Shown in pieces: positions 37,911-53,725 of a stretch of DNA of 64,000 nt; position 1 is the first letter of the stretch; the number at the start of each line of letters is the position of its first letter. Where the stretch lies: assembly GCF_016862815.1 (NCBI RefSeq), contig NZ_BONR01000001.1, positions 496,001-560,000 of the forward strand, written 5' to 3'. The notes beneath the pieces were generated by a model. The model saw only the letters and a program-made list of their open reading frames with translations. It was not told the DNA's origin and searched no databases. The translations under genes were made by a program, and so were the position numbers. The stretch is from Demequina activiva. GTDB lineage: Bacteria; Actinomycetota; Actinomycetes; Actinomycetales; Demequinaceae.

Positions 37911-38477
37911 TCAGGGGAGTGTCGCGGGCGGACTGAACCGCTCGGCATCGGCGACGCCGAACGAGTCACCTGTGGCGTCTACTGTGGCGACCTGCGAGGA
38001 AGACAGTACGACGTCGAGCACAAAGCTGCCGGGGCCTCCCGCGTCGACGATCACAGGTCCGAACCCGACCTGGACGCTTCCCCCGGAGGCCGGGTCCACT
38101 GCAATGACTCCGGTGCCCGATGCCGCATCGACGGCATTGCCTCCAGCATCACGGAGCGTTGCCACCCAGGCCACGGGCCAACTCAAGAAGTCCACGTCCT
38201 GCAGTGCCTGCTCGGGGGACGTGCTGGTGCCCACGAACGCGCCCGTGTCGTTGTAGATGTTGAATGCGGCGTCGAACCGCGCCTCGACAAGGAAGCCACT
38301 CGACTGCGGCGTCAGCGTGGCGCTCGTCACCACCAGCCAGCTTCCCGTCGCCGTCACCGCAGTGGACGAGGCCCGCGCGGGCACGGAGGTTGCGATCACC
38401 ACGGCCGGAGCGGACCAGGCGGCGCCTGTCAGAATGCGGCGGCGGGAGAGTTCAGGGCGACGTCGGCGATCGGTCAC
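37911..38477 (-). CDS. Tat-exported small surface protein, paralog 1
   Basis: 188-residue secreted protein of unknown function. The Tat signal reads ELSRRRILTGAAWSAPAVVI, ending ARASS; three neighbours share it. The mature part is beta-rich (VTATGSWLVVTSATLTP, GSVQVGFGPVIVDAGGPGSF) with no known domain. The GTG at 38477 follows a perfect GGAGGAG. A short 6-bp hairpin (37896-37910) precedes the convergent metX end. Confidence 0.8.
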   Translation of the reverse strand: MTDRRRRPELSRRRILTGAAWSAPAVVIATSVPARASSTAVTATGSWLVVTSATLTPQSSGFLVEARFDAAFNIYNDTGAFVGTSTSPEQALQDVDFLSWPVAWVATLRDAGGNAVDAASGTGVIAVDPASGGSVQVGFGPVIVDAGGPGSFVLDVVLSSSQVATVDATGDSFGVADAERFSPPATLP

Positions 38478-38538
38478 AGCTCCTCCTCCGGGTCTACGGC
38501 CAGGGTAAAGGTCCGTCACAGAATCAGACAACTGCGCG

Positions 38539-39030
38539 CTACGTGTAGTCCCCGGATGCCTCGGAGAACACTCGAGTTCCGGTCTGGACGTGCGTCGCGT
38601 CGATCCTGATGGTGAAGTCATTGTCGTCGCCGGCAACCGACTGACCCTTCACGATCGAGATGACCAGAACGCCGCTGCTGTCGACGACGGCGTTGCTCGA
38701 GAAGGTCGCGACCGGCACCTCGTCGGATGTCGCCGACGGCTGCCATCCCAAGTCAGGGCCAACGCTGACCCCGGAACCCGCAGGCTGGCTGCTCCACGTG
38801 ACGGTCACGAGGATGTCCGTGATCGACTCACCGTCCGGTATGACCACCGTCGCATCGATCTCGTCCTCGTTGCCGCTCGGGGTTACCACGATGTCGATGA
38901 TGCCCGCAGTGGTGGACGCGGCGGCCCGCGGCACTGCGACGCCCAGGATGATGGCCGGCGTGGCCCACGCTGTGCCGACCATGATCCGCCGCCGCGAGAG
39001 GGGGACGTGGGGACCGTCACCACGGACCAT
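38539..39030 (-). CDS. Tat-exported small surface protein, paralog 2
   Basis: 163 residues. Tat signal PLSRRRIMVGTAWATPAIIL, ending PRAAAS. The mature domain (about 120 residues) is acidic and beta-rich (IDIVVTPSGNEDEIDATVVI, ITDILVTVTWSSQPAGSGVS) and lacks cysteines. The ATG at 39030 follows GGGAGG. The four paralogs share the signal but have divergent mature parts; function unknown. Confidence 0.8.
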   Translation of the reverse strand: MVRGDGPHVPLSRRRIMVGTAWATPAIILGVAVPRAAASTTAGIIDIVVTPSGNEDEIDATVVIPDGESITDILVTVTWSSQPAGSGVSVGPDLGWQPSATSDEVPVATFSSNAVVDSSGVLVISIVKGQSVAGDDNDFTIRIDATHVQTGTRVFSEASGDYT

Positions 39031-39126
39031 CGAAGAGCCTCCCTCGCCACCGGTCTGCTGATGCTCGAACCAGCGTACCGCCAAGGGCTCCTGCCGCCAG
39101 CCCCGCCGGCGCTTGAGACGGTCGCG

Positions 39127-39684
39127 CTAGAACGTGAAGACGGATGATCCGGTGACGGTGCCGCCAGCGTTGGTCGCACCCGAGACCACGACCATGGTGG
39201 ACAGGCTCACGGCGGGTGACTTGGCTCGGATCCAGCCCTGCAGGCCGGGGATCGAGTATTGGAAGCTCACCTGCGGATCCTTCGTGAAGACAAGATCGAC
39301 GTTGGATCCAGTGGTCTGCGCGGAGATCAGCCAGCCGTAGGGCCCGGGGAGGTTTCCGATCACGATCGGGGACGCGACGGCGGATGCGGGGAAGCTCGCC
39401 CGCACTTCGAGAGCCACGGGGTAGACGCCCGCGCTGCCCGCGAAGCTGAGGGGTCGGTACTGGATGTCATAGATCGGCTGACCACTGTTGCTACCGATCT
39501 GTGTGACTCCGGCGCCGATGGTGACGGTCCCATCGTTGGGACTGGGTTCGCTCACTGACGCAGCCGCCGGTGGCGCGGACAGGCCCACGATGATCGCGGG
39601 GGTTGCCCACGCCGCGCCGGCGATGATGCGGCGCCTCGAAACGTCGTGTTTGACGCGCGCGGGCGCTGCTTCCTTCTGTGCCAT
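39127..39684 (-). CDS. Tat-exported small surface protein, paralog 3
   Basis: 185 residues. Tat signal DVSRRRIIAGAAWATPAIIV, ending PPAAAS. The mature part is beta-rich (DGTVTIGAGVTQIGSNSG, YPVALEVRASFPASAVASP) with no recognised domain. ATG at 39684 after AGGTAGGA. Its upstream region shares a spaced promoter motif with paralog 4. Confidence 0.8.
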   Translation of the reverse strand: MAQKEAAPARVKHDVSRRRIIAGAAWATPAIIVGLSAPPAAASVSEPSPNDGTVTIGAGVTQIGSNSGQPIYDIQYRPLSFAGSAGVYPVALEVRASFPASAVASPIVIGNLPGPYGWLISAQTTGSNVDLVFTKDPQVSFQYSIPGLQGWIRAKSPAVSLSTMVVVSGATNAGGTVTGSSVFTF

Positions 39685-39882: not shown

Positions 39883-40380
39883 CTAGGGAAGAATCCCCGG
39901 GAACGCGCGCGAGACCTGCTGGCCACCCGACGTGGTGCCCGTGATGGTCACCGTGTAGCCGGAGTTTGGCGCGGCCTTGAAGAACTCAATGTCGAACAAG
40001 TCTCCTGTGGCGAGCGAGGCGCGCGTGAAGGAGTCGGAGCCAGTCGAGCGCTGGGGGGTGCTCCAGGCCGGGATCCACACGTACGGGTTAGGCCCATTCG
40101 CCGTGGACTTGGTCCACGTCACCAGTACCGTGACGCCCGAGAGCGTCACACCGGCTGGAAGCACGATACTCGCCCGCAGGACGTCGGCCTGTCCATTGCT
40201 GGACAGGAGCGTCACGGTGGTGTCCGACAGGGGATCCGCTGGCGGAGTCCCCCCTGAAGCTGCTGCCGGCGGTGCGGCGAGCCCTACCACCACGGCGGGC
40301 GTCGCCCACGCTGTCCCGATCAGCACACGCCGGCGCGACATCTCGCCCGGCGCAGTTTGGTCTACAACATTCGATGCCAT
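39883..40380 (-). CDS. Tat-exported small surface protein, paralog 4
   Basis: 165 residues. Tat signal EMSRRRVLIGTAWATPAVVV, ending PPAAAS. The mature part is beta-rich (LSDTTVTLLSSNGQADVLRA, LSGVTVLVTWTKSTANGPNP), and its VTVTW/VTWTK strand resembles paralog 2. ATG at 40380 after GAGGG. It is the first Tat gene after the PqqD-like gene, in the same direction. Confidence 0.8.
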   Translation of the reverse strand: MASNVVDQTAPGEMSRRRVLIGTAWATPAVVVGLAAPPAAASGGTPPADPLSDTTVTLLSSNGQADVLRASIVLPAGVTLSGVTVLVTWTKSTANGPNPYVWIPAWSTPQRSTGSDSFTRASLATGDLFDIEFFKAAPNSGYTVTITGTTSGGQQVSRAFPGILP

Positions 40381-40439
40381 CGATGTGTCCCTCTCACTGC
40401 ATTGCGCCATGGGGTTCCGCCCCCACATGCGCGCACGGT

Positions 40440-40532: not shown

Positions 40533-40856
40533 TCATTTGGGGCGCTCGCGCGGCGGTCGCACCTCGATGAGGCCGCGTTCCTGGAGCGCTCCGAGGACCT
40601 GGCGGACCGCAACCCCGGGGTCCATGCCCTCGGGACGCCCGAACTGCGCAGAGAGGCGCGCGGCAAGCTGACCGACGGAGTACTCGCGTGCTCGCACTGT
40701 CGCCACCAGCGCCGAGGCCAGCGGCGACAGGAGGGTGAGGTCGCTCCCCCGCAGCACCAGCATCTCTCCGTCGCGTTCGAGCACACTGTCCACGTGAGCG
40801 ATCACGCGGTCAGTGTCCTTCGCATCGACGGGGTCCGGGAACCCAGGCAGGCTCAC
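40533..40856 (-). CDS. PqqD-like (RiPP recognition element family) protein, copy 1
   Basis: 107-residue PqqD-family protein. Typical layout: N-terminal strands (DTDRVIAHVDSVLERDGEML, VLRGSDLTLLSPLASALVAT) and a winged-helix C-terminus (YSVGQLAARLSAQFG, AVRQVLGALQERGLIEV). PqqD-like folds bind leader peptides in RiPP pathways, and free-standing copies occur next to HPr-kinase-like and nucleotidyltransferase genes. The GTG at 40856 overlaps the stop of the kinase fusion gene (GTGA), so the two are coupled. No precursor peptide, cyclase or radical SAM gene is nearby. Confidence 0.78.
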   Translation of the reverse strand: MSLPGFPDPVDAKDTDRVIAHVDSVLERDGEMLVLRGSDLTLLSPLASALVATVRAREYSVGQLAARLSAQFGRPEGMDPGVAVRQVLGALQERGLIEVRPPRERPK

Positions 40857-42307
40857 GCGGCTCCGCCTTCGACTACCTCTGGATGAGCGCCAAGGTCCTG
40901 ACCGCTCGCGAGTGCAGGAAGCAGCGGCACCAGCTGCTCGCACTCTCGATAGGACAGCCGCCAGATTCCGCCGGCGTCCTCGATCACGTGGGCGAGGGTA
41001 TGCAGCTGTGCGGGCAGGCGCGGCAGGTAGCTGGTCTGCTCGGCGATCTCCGCCATGCCAAGCAAGAGCGAGACGGGTTCGAGGGTGGGCTGTTCCGGCG
41101 CATCGTCCCGTCTGTCCAGCAGCACCACCCGTGCGAGCCGGAGGTTCTCCGGTGCCGGCAGCAGGCCCAGATCATGGGCGGGCATCTGCTCCTTGAGCCG
41201 GGCCACTCGATCCGTGATCACGGACAACGGCTTGGGATACGGCAGCACCGTGCCGTCGAATGTCACGGCGAGACTCTCGTCCGTCACATACCCGTAGTGC
41301 CGGCCCAACGTGCGCGCCAGCGTGGTCTTGCCGGTGCCGGACGGGGCGATGAAGCCCACCACCTCGCCAGTGTCTGTCGCGATGCCTGCGGCATGCAGCA
41401 TCACCAGTTCGCCGGCACGTGCGTCGATCGCCCGCACCGTGACGGTTGAGGACAGGAAGTGCATGGCCTGGTCCAGGGAGTGATACGTGAGCCAGCCCTG
41501 GGACCGGGCCTCGAGCCGGCGCGACTCCTCCTCGAACACGGCGACGGAGATGGTCACGTCGGGCTCCTCGTGCGCGGTCGGGGCGAGCAGCCATAGCCAG
41601 GTGCGCTCCACGAGCGTCGAGAACGTGAAGGGCGCGTCGCCATGGCACACCACGCGGACCTTCACGCCCAGCGCATCGATGTCCACGAACATGTCGCCGG
41701 CCGAGGGCGATGGCCTGGAGGCGATGTTCTCCGGAAGCATGGACTCCCAGATGGTTGCCATCCAGAAGGCGGCACGTTGGATGTGGTCCGCGAGCATCTC
41801 CACGCGCGCCTCGGAGGCGTCCGGATCGTCCGTCAACGGTGGAAGGTCGAAGTCGTTGGACAGGTTCGCGTCCGCCACCCGCGAGCTCAGCAGGGCAGGG
41901 TGCTCCCGAAGCGGCGCGATCGCCACCACCAGCTCGTACAGGTAGAAGATCTCGGAGAGCGAGAACGCCTTGCGCCTGGCTCGCGGGATGCGCCGCACCA
42001 CCTCGTCACGGTCCTCGCCGCGGCCGCAGATGATCATGTCCGCGTCCGCGACCATGGCAGGAGTGAGGGTGCGCTGCACGTATCCGGACGCGTCCACACC
42101 GCGGTCCTCGATCGCCTTCGCGGTGCGAGGGTGCATGGGCTCGCCGTCAGCGGCGTCCAACCCTGCGGAGCCGACCTGGATCAGGTGCTCTCCGATCCCT
42201 CGCGAGGCGAGTTCGTGCCGGAGGAGCCTCTCGCCTGCGGGGGCACGGCCCACCCCCTCGACGTCCACGATCAGCACGCGGAAAGGCTCCGGGGGCATCG
42301 TGGACAT
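40853..42307 (-). CDS. fusion: inactive LMW-phosphatase-like domain plus HPr-kinase-like P-loop domain
   Basis: 484 residues. Residues about 8-195 match the low-molecular-weight protein tyrosine phosphatase fold (RVLIVDVEGVGRAPAGERLL; SAGLDAADGEPMHPRTAKAI; ADADMIICGRGEDRDEVV), but the catalytic Cys of the CX5R loop is Asp15 while Arg21 is kept, so it should not be an active phosphatase. Residues about 200-484 form an HprK/PEPCK-like kinase domain with P-loop IAPSGTGKTTLAR (about 320-332) and YVTDESLAVTF. It starts two bases after the BY-kinase gene, in one operon with it and the PqqD gene. Substrate unknown. Confidence 0.8.
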   Translation of the reverse strand: MSTMPPEPFRVLIVDVEGVGRAPAGERLLRHELASRGIGEHLIQVGSAGLDAADGEPMHPRTAKAIEDRGVDASGYVQRTLTPAMVADADMIICGRGEDRDEVVRRIPRARRKAFSLSEIFYLYELVVAIAPLREHPALLSSRVADANLSNDFDLPPLTDDPDASEARVEMLADHIQRAAFWMATIWESMLPENIASRPSPSAGDMFVDIDALGVKVRVVCHGDAPFTFSTLVERTWLWLLAPTAHEEPDVTISVAVFEEESRRLEARSQGWLTYHSLDQAMHFLSSTVTVRAIDARAGELVMLHAAGIATDTGEVVGFIAPSGTGKTTLARTLGRHYGYVTDESLAVTFDGTVLPYPKPLSVITDRVARLKEQMPAHDLGLLPAPENLRLARVVLLDRRDDAPEQPTLEPVSLLLGMAEIAEQTSYLPRLPAQLHTLAHVIEDAGGIWRLSYRECEQLVPLLPALASGQDLGAHPEVVEGGAA

Positions 42308-42309
42308 TG

Positions 42310-43749
42310 CTAGTTCCCGCCTCCACCCATCGGGGCACTGCGATGGCGCCGGTGCGTCGTCGGCGATTCCTTACCGCGCTCGCTGTACTCGTAGGCGTAG
42401 CCGTAGTAGTGGCTGTCGGGACCCTTGCGCGCCATGCCGTCGACGATGACCCCCAGCGCCCGTCCCTTGACCTTGTCCAGGCTCACCAGCGCGCGGTCCA
42501 GGAGGTCGATGGTGGTCTTGCCGGAGCGCACCACGATGAGGGCGCCATCCGTGCGAGCGGTGAGGATCGCGGCGTCCGTGACCGGGATGAGGGGCGGGGT
42601 GTCGATCAGCACGAGCGCGCTGCTGTCGAGAGCGTCCAGCGTCTCGCGCATGGTCGAGCTGCCCAGCAGCTCGGAAGGGTTGGGAGGGACGGTGCCCGCC
42701 CCGAGCACGTGGAACCGCCCGGTGGGGCCGTATTCCTGGAGCACCTCATCCAACGTTGCACGACCCACCAGCACGTCCGTGAGCCCTGCCCCGGGCACCA
42801 GGCCCAGGTACTCGGCGATCCGGGGGCGCCGGAGGTCCGCGTCGACCAGCACCACGGGCTGGCCGGACTCCGCGATGGCCTCCGCAAGTTTGATCGTCAC
42901 CGTGGACTTGCCGTCGCCGGGCAGCGAGGAGGTCACCACGATGATGCGCGGAGGATTGTCCACGTCCATGAACTGGAGGTTGGTGCGCAGCTCACGCACC
43001 GACTCCGTGGTCGCGAAGTCGGTCGAGCGCGCGGCGGCACCCGTGTCTGAGATCTGCTTGTCGAACGGGAGTGCGCCCAGCACCGGCAGGTCGAACTCCT
43101 TCTCGATGTCCGCCGGGGTGCGCAGGCGGCGGTCCACAGCTCCGCGAACGAGGGCGTAGGCGACACCCAACGCGAGCCCCACCATCAAGCCCAGCGCGAC
43201 CGCGAGGCGCACATTCGGCGAGGAGGGGGCGCCGGGCAGAACCGCGGAGTCGAGGGTCTGCAGCTCGACCACTGACGTCGCCTCGTCAGGGAGCTGCTCG
43301 ACGGAGTCGGCATTGTTCTCGAGCAATTGGACCGCGACCACCATGCCCTCGATCCACGACTCGGCCAGATCCTTGGCCTCCTCAGGCGTGGACGCATCGG
43401 CGCTGATGCGCAGCACTGCGGTGTCGAGCGGGTTGGTCACCGAGACTCGGGAGACGAGCGACTGCGGTGAGGCTTCCAGGCCCAGGTCCTCGGCCGCGAA
43501 CTCCGCGACGCGACGGGACGTGGCGATGTCCTCGTAGGACTTCACTCGCGACTTGGCGTAGTTGTCGCCCACGAGGGCCTGGCCCAGGTCCTGGCTCACG
43601 CCGGTGGTGATGATGGCCGAGGAGTTCGCCGTGTAGACCCTGGGCTGCGTCAGCGTCCAGGCGAAGGCGAGCACAGCGCCGGCGAGCGTGAAGGCCACGA
43701 TCGCGATCCAGTGCGCGCGCAGCACCTTCGCGTAGTCCTGCAGCTCCAT
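42310..43749 (-). CDS. polysaccharide co-polymerase / tyrosine autokinase (Wzz-BY-kinase)
   Basis: 479-residue membrane protein controlling polysaccharide chain length and export. Wzz part: first membrane helix about 13-32, second about 180-200. Cytoplasmic BY-kinase part: Walker A VTSSLPGDGKSTVTIKLAEA, Walker A' VVLVDADLRRPRI, Walker B SALVLIDTPPLIP, and a C-terminal tyrosine cluster HYYGYAYEYSERG. The phosphatase-like domain encoded next lacks its Cys, so the usual counter-phosphatase is not provided here. ATG after AGGAG; TAGCCT at 43780-43785 is a likely -10 for the operon. Confidence 0.93.
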   Translation of the reverse strand: MELQDYAKVLRAHWIAIVAFTLAGAVLAFAWTLTQPRVYTANSSAIITTGVSQDLGQALVGDNYAKSRVKSYEDIATSRRVAEFAAEDLGLEASPQSLVSRVSVTNPLDTAVLRISADASTPEEAKDLAESWIEGMVVAVQLLENNADSVEQLPDEATSVVELQTLDSAVLPGAPSSPNVRLAVALGLMVGLALGVAYALVRGAVDRRLRTPADIEKEFDLPVLGALPFDKQISDTGAAARSTDFATTESVRELRTNLQFMDVDNPPRIIVVTSSLPGDGKSTVTIKLAEAIAESGQPVVLVDADLRRPRIAEYLGLVPGAGLTDVLVGRATLDEVLQEYGPTGRFHVLGAGTVPPNPSELLGSSTMRETLDALDSSALVLIDTPPLIPVTDAAILTARTDGALIVVRSGKTTIDLLDRALVSLDKVKGRALGVIVDGMARKGPDSHYYGYAYEYSERGKESPTTHRRHRSAPMGGGGN

Positions 43750-43891: not shown

Positions 43892-44548
43892 ATGGTCCCC
43901 CAAGCCCTGCGCACCGTCGCCGTGAAGGCCACCTCGCGCATCGGCCGTCCCGTGATCGTGAACAGCTACGGCCGCAGCGGCTCCACGGTGCTGTTCATGG
44001 CGATCCGCAACAGCGCCTCGAAGCCGGTGCTGAGAGTCGCGCCGCCCAGCAGGGACTACGGCGCCCAGGCATGGCGCCTCGAGGGCCTGCGGGTGGGCTC
44101 GGGCCGGGTCTACAAGTCGCATGACCGCCCGCCCACGCGGATGCCTCGCGGTGCGCGCATGCTCTACGTGTTCGGGGACCCGGTGGCGTCCACGCTGTCA
44201 GTCATCAAGCGCGGCAGCGACTCTGCGGAGTGGATGGCGCTGCACTGCGAGCACCTGGGCGTGCCGCGATGCGCGCCCGAGGACCTGATCGGTCGGGACG
44301 CCCTCCGCATCGAGGAGCACCTGCGCTCGTGGCTCGACGGCGAGCTCGGTCCCATCGCCTTCGTGCGGTACGAGGCATTGTGGGAACACGCCGATCGCAT
44401 CAGCGACTTCGCGGGACTGCCGGTCACGCTGCCGCAGAGGCGTGAGCGCTCGACGAGCGTGGACCAGGCTCCGCCGGCGCTGCTCGAGACGTATGCGCCG
44501 ATGCGCGAGCTGGTGGCGTCGCTGCCAGACTGGCAGGTGCGCCCCTAG
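43892..44548 (+). CDS. sulfotransferase-like protein
   Basis: 218-residue P-loop protein matching PAPS-dependent sulfotransferases: the 5'-phosphosulfate loop VNSYGRSGSTVLFMAIRN (25-33), a KSHD segment (75-78) in the place of the conserved Lys-Thr-His, the 3'-phosphate segment YVFGDPVASTLSVI (the usual Arg of RDP is Gly), and VRYEALWEHADRISDFAGLP. It is likely to transfer sulfate to a surface glycan. ATG at 43892 after AAGGAG. It lies 4 kb from the PAPS-generating operon, between the BY-kinase and GDP-fucose genes. Could also be an unusual P-loop kinase. Confidence 0.68.
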   Translation: MVPQALRTVAVKATSRIGRPVIVNSYGRSGSTVLFMAIRNSASKPVLRVAPPSRDYGAQAWRLEGLRVGSGRVYKSHDRPPTRMPRGARMLYVFGDPVASTLSVIKRGSDSAEWMALHCEHLGVPRCAPEDLIGRDALRIEEHLRSWLDGELGPIAFVRYEALWEHADRISDFAGLPVTLPQRRERSTSVDQAPPALLETYAPMRELVASLPDWQVRP

Positions 44549-46663: not shown

Positions 46664-46954
46664 TCAGGCGTCGGGTTGGCCGTAGTCGATCAGTCCCAAT
46701 TCGGCGATCGTTGCAACGAAGCCGCGCACATCCTGCTCCATCACGTCCTCGTCCACCTCGAAGGCGGCCGCCAGCTCGGACACGATGAGCCTCTGCGACC
46801 GGGAGCCGTCGATGCGACGCCAGATCTCGAACGCCGGGCCTTCGAACACGTAGGGGGACTGCTGCTCCTCGAGCTGGGGCAGGTTCAGCACCACTGCACG
46901 GTCCTCGCGCACCACCTCCGCGAGTCCGGGCGTGCGTGTCAGGCGCCGGTTCAT
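46664..46954 (-). CDS. PqqD-like protein, copy 2
   Basis: 96-residue PqqD-family protein: N-terminal strands (LAEVVREDRAVVLNLPQLEE), then PYVFEGPAFEIWRRIDGSRS, and a winged-helix C-terminus (QRLIVSELAAAFEVDEDVME, VRGFVATIAELGLIDYG). The ATG overlaps the stop of the nucleotidyltransferase gene upstream (ATGA), giving a two-gene unit. It differs strongly from copy 1, so this is not a recent duplication. Confidence 0.8.
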   Translation of the reverse strand: MNRRLTRTPGLAEVVREDRAVVLNLPQLEEQQSPYVFEGPAFEIWRRIDGSRSQRLIVSELAAAFEVDEDVMEQDVRGFVATIAELGLIDYGQPDA

Positions 46955-47643
46955 GAGTCGTCACCTCGCAGCATTGAATCGTCCGTGATGCCACGCGGCC
47001 AGCCGGTCGCAGTCCCTGATCCCCGACCTCTGTGCTCCATCAGCGGCCTGACCGTGTCGATCGCGCCGGTCGCCGTCGCGAGATCGCGCAGCTCTCGCGC
47101 CTGCGCGCCGTCCAGTGCAGGCAGCACCTCCGTCGCCAGGCGGGTGATCTCCTCGGTGTGCTGGCCGACTCGGACCGAACTGCGCAGCGCGCGCACCACT
47201 GCGATGAGGATCGCTGCCACGCGGTCGACGATGGGCACCTTCACTCCCGCGATCACCAGGCTCTCTCGACGCTCCCACAGCACATCGAACACCTCCCGCT
47301 CGGAAGCCAGGAAACCTGGGAGACTGCGATGCACCTCGACCTCGCACGGCCAATGCTGGTGGATGACGGTGGTCGAGGGCTGGCCCCGTTCGCGGAAGCT
47401 CTCAGACGCGGCGCGCTCATCCCAGCCCGCGGTACGCAGCGCGGCGAGGTAGGCGTCAATCGAGCCAGTCTCCACCCAGAGGTCCACGTCCGTGCTCACG
47501 CACTGCGGCAGGAGACCATGGTGGGCGTGGACAGGACCCGCGGTCGCCAGGGCACGCACGCGTTGCTCGGCCGCGACAGTGGCCGCCAGCGCGTAGGAGA
47601 GTTCGACCGCGTCGAGAAGTGCGAGCGGACGCGAGGGAGTCAC
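46951..47643 (-). CDS. nucleotidyltransferase family protein (NTP_transf_5-like), copy 1
   Basis: 230-residue protein of the uncharacterised nucleotidyltransferase family. The nucleotidyltransferase signature CVSTDVDLWVETGSIDAYL (Ser-x-Asp-Val-Asp) follows a HAHHGLLP loop; the next conserved block is HQHWPCEVEVHRSLPGFLAS, shared with copy 2. The C-terminal half is helical. GTG at 47643 is six bases after TACCGT. Family members occur with PqqD and HPr-kinase-like genes; substrate unknown. Confidence 0.72.
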   Translation of the reverse strand: MTPSRPLALLDAVELSYALAATVAAEQRVRALATAGPVHAHHGLLPQCVSTDVDLWVETGSIDAYLAALRTAGWDERAASESFRERGQPSTTVIHQHWPCEVEVHRSLPGFLASEREVFDVLWERRESLVIAGVKVPIVDRVAAILIAVVRALRSSVRVGQHTEEITRLATEVLPALDGAQARELRDLATATGAIDTVRPLMEHRGRGSGTATGWPRGITDDSMLRGDDS

Positions 47644-52789: not shown

Positions 52790-53725
52790 TCAGCGGCGCG
52801 ATCTCGAGCGGGCGGTAGCGAGCGACCGCAGGGCCCTCGGGGCGTCTCTGAGACCTCGACCTACACGCGAGAGCCGTGCTCGCAGCAGGTCACGACGGTG
52901 AGGTCCGATCTCGGGGTGCGTCGCTCGCATCTCGGCGGCATCAGGCCATATCCCCTCCACCAGCAGACGCGGGCGTTCCCGCCACGGCGCCCGAGCGAAG
53001 GTCGCCACGAACTGTCCGGCGAACGTATCGCCGCTGTGGCGGCGCGTCTCCCAGTCCACGAGAGACGGGGTAGAGGCCACGGCGACATCGATGCCCTCTG
53101 CCCTCAGCCACTCTCGGAGGGGCCCCGCCGCTCCGGTCGCGACAGCGAGCGCGCCGAGTGCGTCCCTGTCGCGTGGCGCAAGCTCGCGTACGGCGATGGA
53201 CGTCGACACCAACTCTGCCGCGTAGCGGGCCACCGTCGTGTCATGACGTAGCGAGTGCAGCGCGGAGATCAGGATGGAACCGAGCGGGCCGGCCACGTCC
53301 ACATCGATGCCAGCCGCGCTCATGCCCGACCGCTCGTCCCACAAGGCGTCGAAGGCGTCGTGCGGCCCCGCCAGCATGCCCGGAAACTCGTGATGCACAT
53401 CGATGTCACACGGCCAATGGGGGTGCACCATCGTGACCGAATGAGCAGACGCCTCTGTCGCGATGCTGGTCTCGGGCCTGCCTGACCAGCCAGCCCCTTC
53501 CAGAGAGTGGACGAACTCGCCCGCCTCGAGCGGCTCGACGAGGACGTCCACGTCAGCGCTCACCCGCTCCGGACGCAGGCGATGGTGATCCGCGACGGCC
53601 CCTTTGATGACGAGCGCGCGCACCCCCAAGCGGCGCGCGCGCGTTGCGACCACCGTCATCGCCAGCTCCGTGGCATGAACCTGGAGCAGGCCTCGGGAAG
53701 CCGGCTGCGGGTCATCGGTCGTCAC
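52790..53725 (-). CDS. nucleotidyltransferase family protein (NTP_transf_5-like), copy 2
   Basis: 311-residue paralog of the 46951-47643 protein, with a longer basic C-terminus. Shared blocks: ALVIKGAVADHHRLRPERVS followed by ADVDVLVEPLEAGEFVHSLE (Ser-Ala-Asp-Val-Asp) and VHPHWPCDIDVHHEFPGMLA. Such proteins have a canonical KG...D-x-D nucleotidyltransferase core, and this copy keeps the KG that copy 1 lacks. GTG start at 53725. It lies alone between the sulfate operon and the flippase. Substrate unknown. Confidence 0.75.
   Translation of the reverse strand: MTTDDPQPASRGLLQVHATELAMTVVATRARRLGVRALVIKGAVADHHRLRPERVSADVDVLVEPLEAGEFVHSLEGAGWSGRPETSIATEASAHSVTMVHPHWPCDIDVHHEFPGMLAGPHDAFDALWDERSGMSAAGIDVDVAGPLGSILISALHSLRHDTTVARYAAELVSTSIAVRELAPRDRDALGALAVATGAAGPLREWLRAEGIDVAVASTPSLVDWETRRHSGDTFAGQFVATFARAPWRERPRLLVEGIWPDAAEMRATHPEIGPHRRDLLRARLSRVGRGLRDAPRALRSLATARSRSRR

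Follow-up and report, generated by a model that had tools for sequence, protein, structure and literature searches.

A Cys-less LMW-phosphatase domain fused to a PEPCK/HprK-fold kinase in Demequina and its possible link to the tagging of Tat-exported proteins

Background

In the classical BY-kinase/Wzb pair, the gene of an active LMW phosphatase (LMW-PTP) adjoins the BY-kinase gene. This arrangement is not matched at the locus described here, where the neighbour of the BY-kinase gene encodes a Cys-less phosphatase domain and a free LMW-PTP lies about 25 kb away. A dead enzyme is known from the exopolysaccharide system of Myxococcus xanthus, whose BY pseudokinase EcpK is proposed to be a scaffold according to the accessible part of the report (PMC12004946). 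HprK-like kinases occur in lasso-peptide clusters. There, as described in the accessible parts of two reviews (PMC9266682, PMC8498205), the C-terminal Ser of the precursors is phosphorylated by such a kinase, the presence of one or two hexoses on this phosphate requires PsmN, an annotated nucleotidyltransferase, and the B1 proteins are PqqD-like leader binders. A conserved His-Lys-Asp-Asp motif is described for the lasso-peptide kinases in the part available of one of them (PMC9266682).

A search of the open-access literature found no paper on 'HprK-related kinase' and none combining any two of HprK, PqqD and exosortase. Among the papers listed, there was no LMW-type bacterial pseudophosphatase and none linking twin-arginine with HPr kinase.

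The window analysed here is a stretch of 64,000 nucleotides from Demequina activiva. It encodes a protein of 484 AA with an ATG start (40853..42307, minus strand), in which an LMW-PTP-like domain is fused to a kinase of the PEPCK/HprK fold. The fusion ORF starts at 42307 and the ORF of the Wzz/BY-kinase ends at 42310, which confirms the two-base gap between the genes given in an earlier, sequence-only reading of the window.

Results

The sequence-only reading had described an LMW-phosphatase domain whose C-x5-R catalytic loop reads D-x5-R, and this is borne out by the Pfam search and the loop alignment. AA 11-113 of the fusion match LMWPc (E-value 4.1e-12, 46.9 bits, cut-off 23.2), and in the alignment with intact LMW-PTPs the column of the nucleophile Cys holds D15 and that of the P-loop Arg holds R21. 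The degenerate P-loop D15-VEGVG-R21 (42245..42265, minus strand) is part of the sequence V-L-I-V-D15-V-E-G-V-G-R21-A-P, and a Cys displaced inside the loop was rejected because the loop is free of Cys. The rest of the fold had been called recognisable, and the AlphaFold model of the fusion (pLDDT 85.5) agrees with this. AA 9-192, the predicted pseudophosphatase domain (41732..42283, minus strand), superpose on YwlE (4kk4; Z 21.3, rmsd 1.8, 150 residues aligned) and on Wzb of E. coli (2wmy; Z 19.0, rmsd 2.3, 144 residues aligned). Structure prediction and alignment to LMW-PTPs, which had been suggested as a check, find the fold present and an Asp at the Cys column.

A sequencing error or an accident of a single genome was ruled out because the Cys is missing in all 21 Demequina fusions, in which its position is taken by D (18), G (2) or S (1). 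The P-loop Arg is kept in 18/21 fusions. Since D15 and R21 are kept together in 18 and lost together in three, no part of the former catalytic site is indispensable. At the column of the general-acid Asp, the 21 fusions have 20 gaps, one T and no Asp, where the alignment of this loop is uncertain since most fusions are shorter there. Both the Cys and the general-acid Asp are present in all 46 other LMWPc rows of the same alignment, from which a duplicate row (L007) and a split sequence (L154) were left out. The DDP at AA 160-162 was rejected as a surviving general acid, as it lies inside an insertion that is present in 2/21 fusions and missing in 19/21. Judged by these alignments, the loss of the Cys is a family trait, and the domain is a predicted pseudophosphatase family-wide. 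That the domain is still a phosphatase, with Asp15 or another residue as nucleophile, is barely credible: the intact fold of the model and the joint presence of D15 and R21 in 18/21 fusions would fit an active enzyme, but none of the 21 has the general acid at the aligned column, G or S stands at position 15 in 3/21, and 20/21 fusion genomes encode an intact CTGNICRS phosphatase at another site.

The N-terminal domain is under purifying selection. In nine pairs, some of which have a common member, its dN/dS is 0.14-0.39 compared to 0.06-0.28 for the kinase part. It is attached to the kinase in 21 of the 22 kinase genomes of the genus, and the residues that never vary away from the former catalytic site include P132, H136 and W187. 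All this argues against a partnerless fusion remnant that merely aids the folding or solubility of the kinase, a reading that we consider quite improbable, although the catalytic site is lost, the conservation of the domain is slightly lower than that of the kinase part (mean frequency of the commonest residue 0.63 versus 0.69) and G040 is a kinase genome of the genus in which the domain is missing. The fusion alignment left out L032 and L034, which are kinases without LMWPc, and L033, an ordinary phosphatase.

The idea that the fused domain stands in for an absent phosphatase did not hold, as each of the 21 fusion genomes also has a gene for a free LMW-PTP, which is intact in 20 of them and divided between frames in the remaining one. 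The intact ones carry the CTGNICRS loop, and in 17/21 fusion genomes a free gene is located within 50 kb of the fusion on the same contig. A genome-wide loss of LMW phosphatases was likewise rejected for D. activiva itself, whose genome has six LMWPc matches including the fusion and an intact CTGNICRS loop in two of the remaining five; one free PTP is encoded at G000:C1:563473-564009, about 25 kb from the fusion. Since a free intact LMW-PTP is present in 20/21 fusion genomes, the BY-kinase is probably dephosphorylated by an enzyme other than the fusion.

The relationship of the fused domain to other LMW phosphatases was assessed with two trees, both unrooted. In the second tree, all fused domains group together in a single clade (100/98). 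On its side of a further branch (96/81) are 7 of the 11 kinase-locus PTPs, including all five from Nocardioides, and one other PTP (L175), and the free PTPs of Demequina are placed on the opposite side. The kinase-locus PTPs L083, L105, L093 and L094 group with the free PTPs in this tree and on the fused side in the first. In the genome of L093, L175 scores higher against the fused profile than the kinase-locus PTP does (69.2 versus 59.2 bits). The second tree drew on 30 of the 34 LMWPc matches of eight other genomes, so that some loci have no row; four rows and then 18 (ArsC-like or duplicates) were left out, as were 15 of the 30 free phosphatases of Demequina. In Nocardioides, an intact LMW phosphatase gene lies directly before the same kinase gene. 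The fused domain was most likely derived from an LMW phosphatase gene like this one, as far as the sequences indicate.

The sequence-only reading had also held the fused P-loop kinase-like domain to be intact, and its sequence and own model support this. The domain spans AA 206-470 (40898..41692, minus strand), and its Walker A motif APSGTGKTT (AA 321-329; 41321..41347, minus strand) and the acidic pair D343-E344 are invariant in the 47-row kinase alignment, as are H305, K327, K359, K372 and R399. The best match of the model (pLDDT 94.8) is PEPCK of E. coli (6v2m; Z 15.5, rmsd 4.4, 260 residues aligned), which places it in the PEPCK/HprK superfamily. The best 50 structural matches found with Foldseek and those found with VIA include PEPCK and no HprK chains, a result with which an HprK fold is still compatible. 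The C-terminal domain thus looks like an intact kinase of the PEPCK/HprK fold, and from its invariant residues and the model we infer kinase activity.

The best-matching named model is HprK-related kinase A (HprK_rel_A, TIGR04352), which is matched by 45 of the 47 kinase members at an E-value of at most 0.001 (best 2.8e-11) and by the window kinase with 26.2 bits, below the cut-off of 200. No Pfam family matched the kinase domain of the window protein, and the three families listed for the 47 members were each matched by a single member. A search of the PDB sequences with the kinase profile returned 26 hits, almost all of them ABC-type ATPases picked up via the P-loop region. A classical HPr kinase/phosphorylase acting on HPr in carbon control would have the same superfamily fold and Walker A motif, but the window protein scores low with the HprK-related models (26-28 bits, cut-off 200), the window proteins scanned include no PTS family, and the surrounding cassette and the co-occurrence with Tat-signal proteins described below point elsewhere. 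This identity is therefore very improbable.

The BY-kinase (42310..43749, minus strand) has Walker motifs and a C-terminal Tyr cluster, YYGYAYEY, and with 135.9 bits it is the only match to TIGR01007 above the cut-off (108.05) in its genome. The other genes of the cassette are less clearly assigned. PqqD2 (40533..40856, minus strand), which with the chosen GTG start overlaps the fusion gene by 4 bases, is PqqD-like on weak matches to TIGR04353 (E-value 0.015, 16.2 bits, cut-off 35) and Pfam PqqD (E-value 0.18). PqqD1 (46664..46954, minus strand) matches Pfam PqqD with an E-value of 5.7e-11 and TIGR04353, the HPr-rel-A PqqD model, with 20.0 bits, again below 35. Next to it is a nucleotidyltransferase-like gene (46951..47643, minus strand, GTG start chosen) with altered motifs and a match to NTP_transf_5 below the cut-off (E-value 6.2e-4). 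A second nucleotidyltransferase (52790..53725, minus strand; NTP_transf_5, 31.5 bits, cut-off 31.2) is free of such alteration, and its motifs KG, SADVDV and CDIDVH resemble those of its relatives. Nucleotidyltransferase, PqqD1, BY-kinase, fusion and PqqD2 genes are all on one strand in the 21 Demequina loci, with varying spacing and order. PqqD-like and nucleotidyltransferase genes are often found near the kinase genes, and of 47 other kinase ORFs, 16 carry a fused domain homologous to PqqD2.

The BY-kinase gene is located upstream of the fusion on the same strand in 21/21 loci, with an intervening gene in one of them (L037). This constant company makes it plausible, from gene order and sequence, that the dead phosphatase domain docks to the BY-kinase. 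Of the sensing or docking role put forward in the sequence-only reading, docking thus stays a plausible proposal. The joint loss of D15 and R21 in 3/21 fusions casts doubt on sensing by a conserved phosphotyrosine pocket.

Docking could also be the whole purpose of the protein: the dead domain would bind the tyrosine tail of the BY-kinase, phosphorylated or free, and bring the kinase domain there, making the fusion an exopolysaccharide regulator and the Tat proteins bystanders. Besides gene order, the grouping of the domain with phosphatases of BY-kinase loci, the presence of a single BY-kinase above the cut-off in the genome and the precedent of the pseudokinase scaffold EcpK, as far as its report is accessible (PMC12004946), favour this explanation. 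It leaves the PqqD and nucleotidyltransferase genes unexplained, as well as the presence of the Tat signal in 80 of the 86 genomes with the kinase, and the pocket residues D15 and R21 are not invariant. In addition, the LMWPc domain is missing in all 47 kinase ORFs examined outside the 21 fusions, so the core function of the kinase does not need it; two of these 47 ORFs, L091 and L187, seem to be parts of a single gene. For a complete account of the fusion, we rate this explanation as fairly unlikely.

The predicted Tat-exported proteins near the cassette have a common signal, SRRRxxxGAAWATPA. Four matches to this motif with an E-value of at most 0.001 were found in the genome, all adjoining the fusion gene on the minus strand: protein 1 (SRRRVLIGTAWATPAV; 39883..40428, putative start), protein 2 (SRRRIIAGAAWATPAI; 39127..39684), protein 3 (SRRRIMVGTAWATPAI; 38539..39084, putative start) and protein 4 (SRRRILTGAAWSAPAV; 37911..38636, putative start). 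Among 396 genomes of the order, 86 have the kinase, 86 the signal motif, 80 both and 304 neither (Fisher 1e-68, kinship ignored, with both models seeded from loci that are counted here). Within the family, the motif is present in 22/22 kinase genomes and in 1/25 kinase-free genomes. The motif occurs without the kinase in six genomes, in which a looser kinase search gave short P-loop matches only; the kinase occurs without the motif in another six, one of them with a variant motif. As a pattern, a recognisable AWxxP signal occurs in 13 of 35 non-Demequina loci within the locus stretch examined, with the spurious-looking matches in L077, L098 and L109 set aside. The linked proteins have a length of about 140-330 AA from the signal onward. 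In 65 of 72 signals, a Ser follows the Trp at a distance of 17 residues, which makes it a candidate acceptor of the phosphate. Because AWxxPA Tat-signal proteins are found together with the kinase half over many genera, and PqqD-like and nucleotidyltransferase genes are often close to it, these proteins rather than the BY-kinase are more likely its main substrates.

Discussion

We give an even chance to the explanation that the kinase, with the dead phosphatase attached as a docking module, phosphorylates the signal-bearing Tat proteins before export, together with the PqqD and nucleotidyltransferase proteins. The order of fusion events, the docking partner, the substrate and the product in this scheme are those that we infer from the locus. 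The N-terminal domain would stem from an LMW phosphatase gene and would have lost its nucleophile and general acid after the fusion. Selection would have preserved it as a folded module for docking or regulation, most likely with the adjacent BY-kinase/Wzz protein as its partner. Within the cassette, the kinase domain would cooperate with the nucleotidyltransferase and with the PqqD-type proteins as peptide binders. Proteins with the SRRRxxxGAAWATPA signal would most likely be phosphorylated while still in the cytoplasm, after which the nucleotidyltransferase may extend the phosphate, perhaps with a sugar. Tat would then export the finished protein to the exopolysaccharide layer, whose assembly would be under the control of the BY-kinase.

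A wider and more tentative proposal, possible rather than probable, is that of a new actinobacterial sorting or tagging system. AWxxPA would be recognised by PqqD, and the protein phosphorylated, extended by the nucleotidyltransferase, exported folded via Tat and built into, or made to anchor, the BY-kinase-controlled exopolysaccharide, with the dead phosphatase linking the tagging kinase to the polysaccharide machine. The little-noticed gene set and its unusual export signal suggest an unrecognised form of surface-protein tagging. Modification of the proteins ahead of export, if it takes place, would account for their use of Tat. It would also assign a function to genes that are so far uncharacterised in many genomes of actinobacteria, and would connect capsule assembly with the modification of proteins.

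Compared to known systems, the HprK-rel-A system (TIGR04352 and TIGR04353) provides the best named model for the kinase and weak ones for PqqD1 and PqqD2. The window proteins are far under the curated cut-offs (26-28 against 200 bits; 16 and 20 against 35 bits). The lasso tailoring kinases PadeK, ThcoK, SyanK and PsmK, as far as described in the accessible parts of the reports, likewise combine an HprK-superfamily kinase, a PqqD protein and a nucleotidyltransferase-like protein in one cluster. PsmN and the cassette nucleotidyltransferases are likened here by annotation rather than by family comparison. The window kinase has H305, K327 and D343 but E344 in fourth place of the His-Lys-Asp-Asp motif, taken from its partly accessible description and not from an alignment. 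Membership in a lasso-peptide cluster was rejected: the genome has no match to the C enzyme Asn_synthase (PF00733) at an E-value of at most 0.001 and none above the cut-off to the B2 protease (PF13471), for which one match below it was found on another contig. The products of lasso clusters are short precursor peptides, in contrast to the much longer proteins here. The combination of an HprK-fold kinase, PqqD and a nucleotidyltransferase, known jointly from lasso-peptide clusters in those accounts, is now tied to Tat proteins with one signal in many genera.

The phosphatase half resembles Wzb, Etp and AmsI, the LMW-PTPs of polysaccharide loci, in its fold, SAG motif, P-loop Arg and link to a BY-kinase. 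Unlike them, it has neither the nucleophile Cys nor an aligned general acid, is fused to a kinase, and has a free phosphatase elsewhere. With EcpK, as far as it is described in the accessible text, it shares the retention of a dead signalling enzyme in an exopolysaccharide system. The dead partner is the kinase in the case of EcpK, whereas in the Demequina fusion the kinase appears intact and the phosphatase fold is dead. To a field in which a dead kinase has already been described, this adds a genus-conserved LMW-type pseudophosphatase fused to an apparently intact kinase.

The fusion protein and its free relative

The fusion ORF (40853-42307, minus strand; 484 aa) begins 2 bases past the end of the upstream BY-kinase gene (42310..43749, minus strand), the position given in the sequence-only reading. 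Its N-terminal half matches the Pfam LMWPc model (E 4.1e-12), and aa 9-192 of the full-length AlphaFold model (alignment of 21 sequences, pLDDT 85.5) superpose on YwlE (4kk4; Z 21.3, rmsd 1.8, 150 aligned) and on Wzb (2wmy; Z 19.0, rmsd 2.3, 144 aligned). Both the recognisable LMW-phosphatase fold claimed in that reading and its Cys-less D-x5-R loop (Asp15, Arg21) are borne out, as the phosphate-binding loop reads D15-VEGVG-R21 and D15 occupies the nucleophile column. This N-terminal domain is almost certainly a dead phosphatase. The predicted fusion to an intact P-loop kinase-like domain likewise agrees with the C-terminal half, where Walker A is intact. Modelled separately (47-row alignment, pLDDT 94.8), this part adopts a PEPCK/HprK-superfamily fold (Z 15.5, rmsd 4.4, 260 aligned), and H305, K327, D343 and E344 are invariant across the 47 rows. 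The kinase domain is very probably intact.

The family survey gave matches in 23 of 47 genomes. The full-length fusion is found in 21 of these, the window's included, all in the genus Demequina; one other (G017) matches through an ordinary phosphatase only, and the last (G040) has two kinase matches without LMWPc. The two G040 copies (L032/L055 and L034/L056) carry a C-terminal PqqD-like domain, and each has a divergent BY-kinase nearby that is encoded on the other strand.

Position 15 holds D in 18 of the 21 fusions, G in two and S in one; R21 is retained wherever D15 is and missing from the other three. None of the 21 has the general-acid Asp at the aligned column, whereas the 46 other LMWPc rows of this alignment have Cys and Asp at the nucleophile and general-acid columns. 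Judged from the alignment, loss of the catalytic residues is a family trait. The dN/dS values (NG86) are 0.14-0.39 for the fused LMWPc domain over nine pairs, some with a common member, compared with 0.06-0.28 for the kinase part; by these ratios, the dead domain is nevertheless under purifying selection.

A free LMW-PTP homologue is present in all 21 fusion genomes (E <= 5e-30), with loop and acid intact in 20 and the gene split in G037. Computed from positions, 17 of the 21 genomes have it on the contig of the fusion and no more than 50 kb away; in the window's genome the distance is about 25 kb. By its motifs, an active LMW phosphatase is retained in the fusion genomes. One BY-kinase exceeds the model cut-off in the window's genome and the free LMW-PTP is kept; therefore, the free enzyme is likely the BY-kinase phosphatase.

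The G037 gene (G037:C1:762377-762909, L154) is split over two frames, and the G037 fusion, with S at position 15, is the first branch within the fused clade. At the G022 fusion locus, the BY-kinase match (L037:7238-8559) is broken into two pieces that overlap and differ in frame, and BY-kinase and fusion are separated by a nucleotidyltransferase-like gene. In the window's genome, two adjoining arsenate-reductase-like LMWPc genes (L003/L004, G000:C1:572453-573465) follow about 9 kb past the free phosphatase, one with an apparent ArsR-type HTH ahead in the same ORF, as judged by eye.

Origin of the fused domain

Three Nocardioides loci (L077, L078, L096) have an intact, stand-alone phosphatase gene with the motifs CxGNxCRS and DVPDPMG directly 5' of the same kinase gene and in the same orientation. 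In a first tree, all 11 kinase-locus phosphatases grouped with the fused clade (98/91). A second tree of 59 rows, which adds other phosphatases from eight genomes with kinase-locus phosphatases, recovers the fused domains as a single clade (100/98). Here, a 96/81 branch places seven of the 11 kinase-locus phosphatases, including all five from Nocardioides, plus one other (L175), on the fused side, and the remaining four with the free Demequina phosphatases on the opposite side. The simplest account is that adjacent phosphatase and kinase genes would have fused, with catalysis being lost afterwards. Outside the 21 fusions, the LMWPc domain occurs in none of the 47 kinase ORFs examined and a PqqD-like domain in 16, with L091 and L187 looking like one gene. 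Two actinobacteria-like kinase loci stand under other-phylum names (L087, a Sporosarcina beigongshangi record; L083, an Armatimonadota MAG), by either contamination or transfer.

The surrounding locus

Since the window also encodes glycosyltransferases, a flippase-like protein and a Wzy-like protein, the locus is probably a Wzx/Wzy-type exopolysaccharide locus. Nucleotidyltransferase-like, PqqD, BY-kinase, fusion and divergent PqqD-like genes share one strand in all 21 Demequina loci; their order and spacing differ, and some members lie several kb off. Among 35 non-Demequina kinase loci (L076-L110; flanks of up to 8 kb, some ending at contig ends), 19 have a BY-kinase and 16 a nucleotidyltransferase.

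Beside PqqD1 (46664..46954, minus strand), an NTP_transf_5-type nucleotidyltransferase (46951-47643, minus strand) has altered motifs, AGP for KGP and CEVE for CDID. A second one (52790-53725, minus strand) keeps both motifs and may for this reason be the working copy. Just 5' of the BY-kinase and facing the other way, 43892-44548 (plus strand) encodes a protein that is sulfotransferase-like by its GRSGST motif. Pfam gave it no match at E <= 0.01, and tblastn found no counterpart at E <= 1e-4 within the analysed stretches of the other 20 fusion loci. PMC8498205 also reports a putative sulfotransferase in some lasso clusters.

Tat-signal proteins and the kinase

Directly 3' of the PqqD-like gene (40533..40856, minus strand) lie genes for four predicted secreted proteins with near-identical Tat-type signals (SRRRxxxGAAWATPA) and no convincing Pfam or NCBIfam family match. 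At least one such protein is also encoded at every other fusion locus (20 of 20). The pattern used to collect 72 signals from the window and L035-L056 requires RR, W and P three after W. At positions outside this requirement, counted from W, 64 of the 72 carry G at -3, 68 carry A at -1, 67 carry A at +8, 71 carry P at +12 and 69 carry A at +15. S at +17, after the AxA region (65/72), may be an acceptor residue, located where the mature protein begins.

The four motif matches at E <= 0.001 in the window's genome are all at the fusion locus. Within Demequinaceae, the motif occurs in 22/22 kinase genomes versus 1/25 without the kinase. Across 396 genomes of the order, in counts that ignore relatedness and with both models seeded from the same loci, 86 have the kinase, 86 the motif, 80 both and 304 neither; outside Demequinaceae the numbers are 66, 65 and 60 for kinase, motif and both. 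The exceptions are six kinase-only genomes, including G076, where a diverged motif (E 0.0015) sits roughly 0.8 kb away from the weak kinase match, and six motif-only genomes, in which a looser search for the kinase returned just short P-loop matches. A signal recognisable by pattern is present in 13 of the 35 non-Demequina kinase loci within the flank examined. In some other genomes (e.g. G181, G305) motif proteins are distant from the kinase, the arrangement to be expected if the motif is a sorting signal and the kinase processes proteins that carry it. A functional link between the kinase and the Tat proteins is probable. In G022, three further AWxxPA matches, of which one contains an internal stop, form a second group (G022:C1:1716733-1719389) that lies far from the fusion locus and less than 20 kb from the free phosphatases.

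Proposed mechanism

Two reviews, PMC9266682 and PMC8498205, describe PqqD-like B1 proteins as leader-peptide binders, HprK-like kinases as transferring phosphate to lasso precursors at their C-terminal Ser, and PsmN, an annotated nucleotidyltransferase, as required for attaching one or two hexoses to this phosphate. Here, proteins of these three kinds go with Tat proteins in which the signal is the evident shared feature. This suggests that recognition depends on the signal. Tat proteins would be recognised through it, modified in the cytoplasm and then exported, folded, by Tat; that they are the substrates has about an even chance.

The dead phosphatase domain is most likely a docking module. 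Of the earlier proposal that it senses or docks to the BY-kinase, docking is thus the part retained, and the BY-kinase as partner, by descent, is a tentative assignment. Sensing through a phosphotyrosine-reading pocket is less likely, since the D15/R21 pair can be dispensed with.

Comparison with known systems

In the model libraries searched, the window kinase reached no curated cut-off, and searches of open-access papers turned up none whose title or abstract describes the fusion or a link between the kinase and the Tat signal. Every part is a member of a known fold family. The locus differs from lasso-peptide clusters in that the lasso core enzymes were not found over the cut-off in the window's genome, and it resembles them in its kinase, nucleotidyltransferase and PqqD proteins, all of types known from these clusters.
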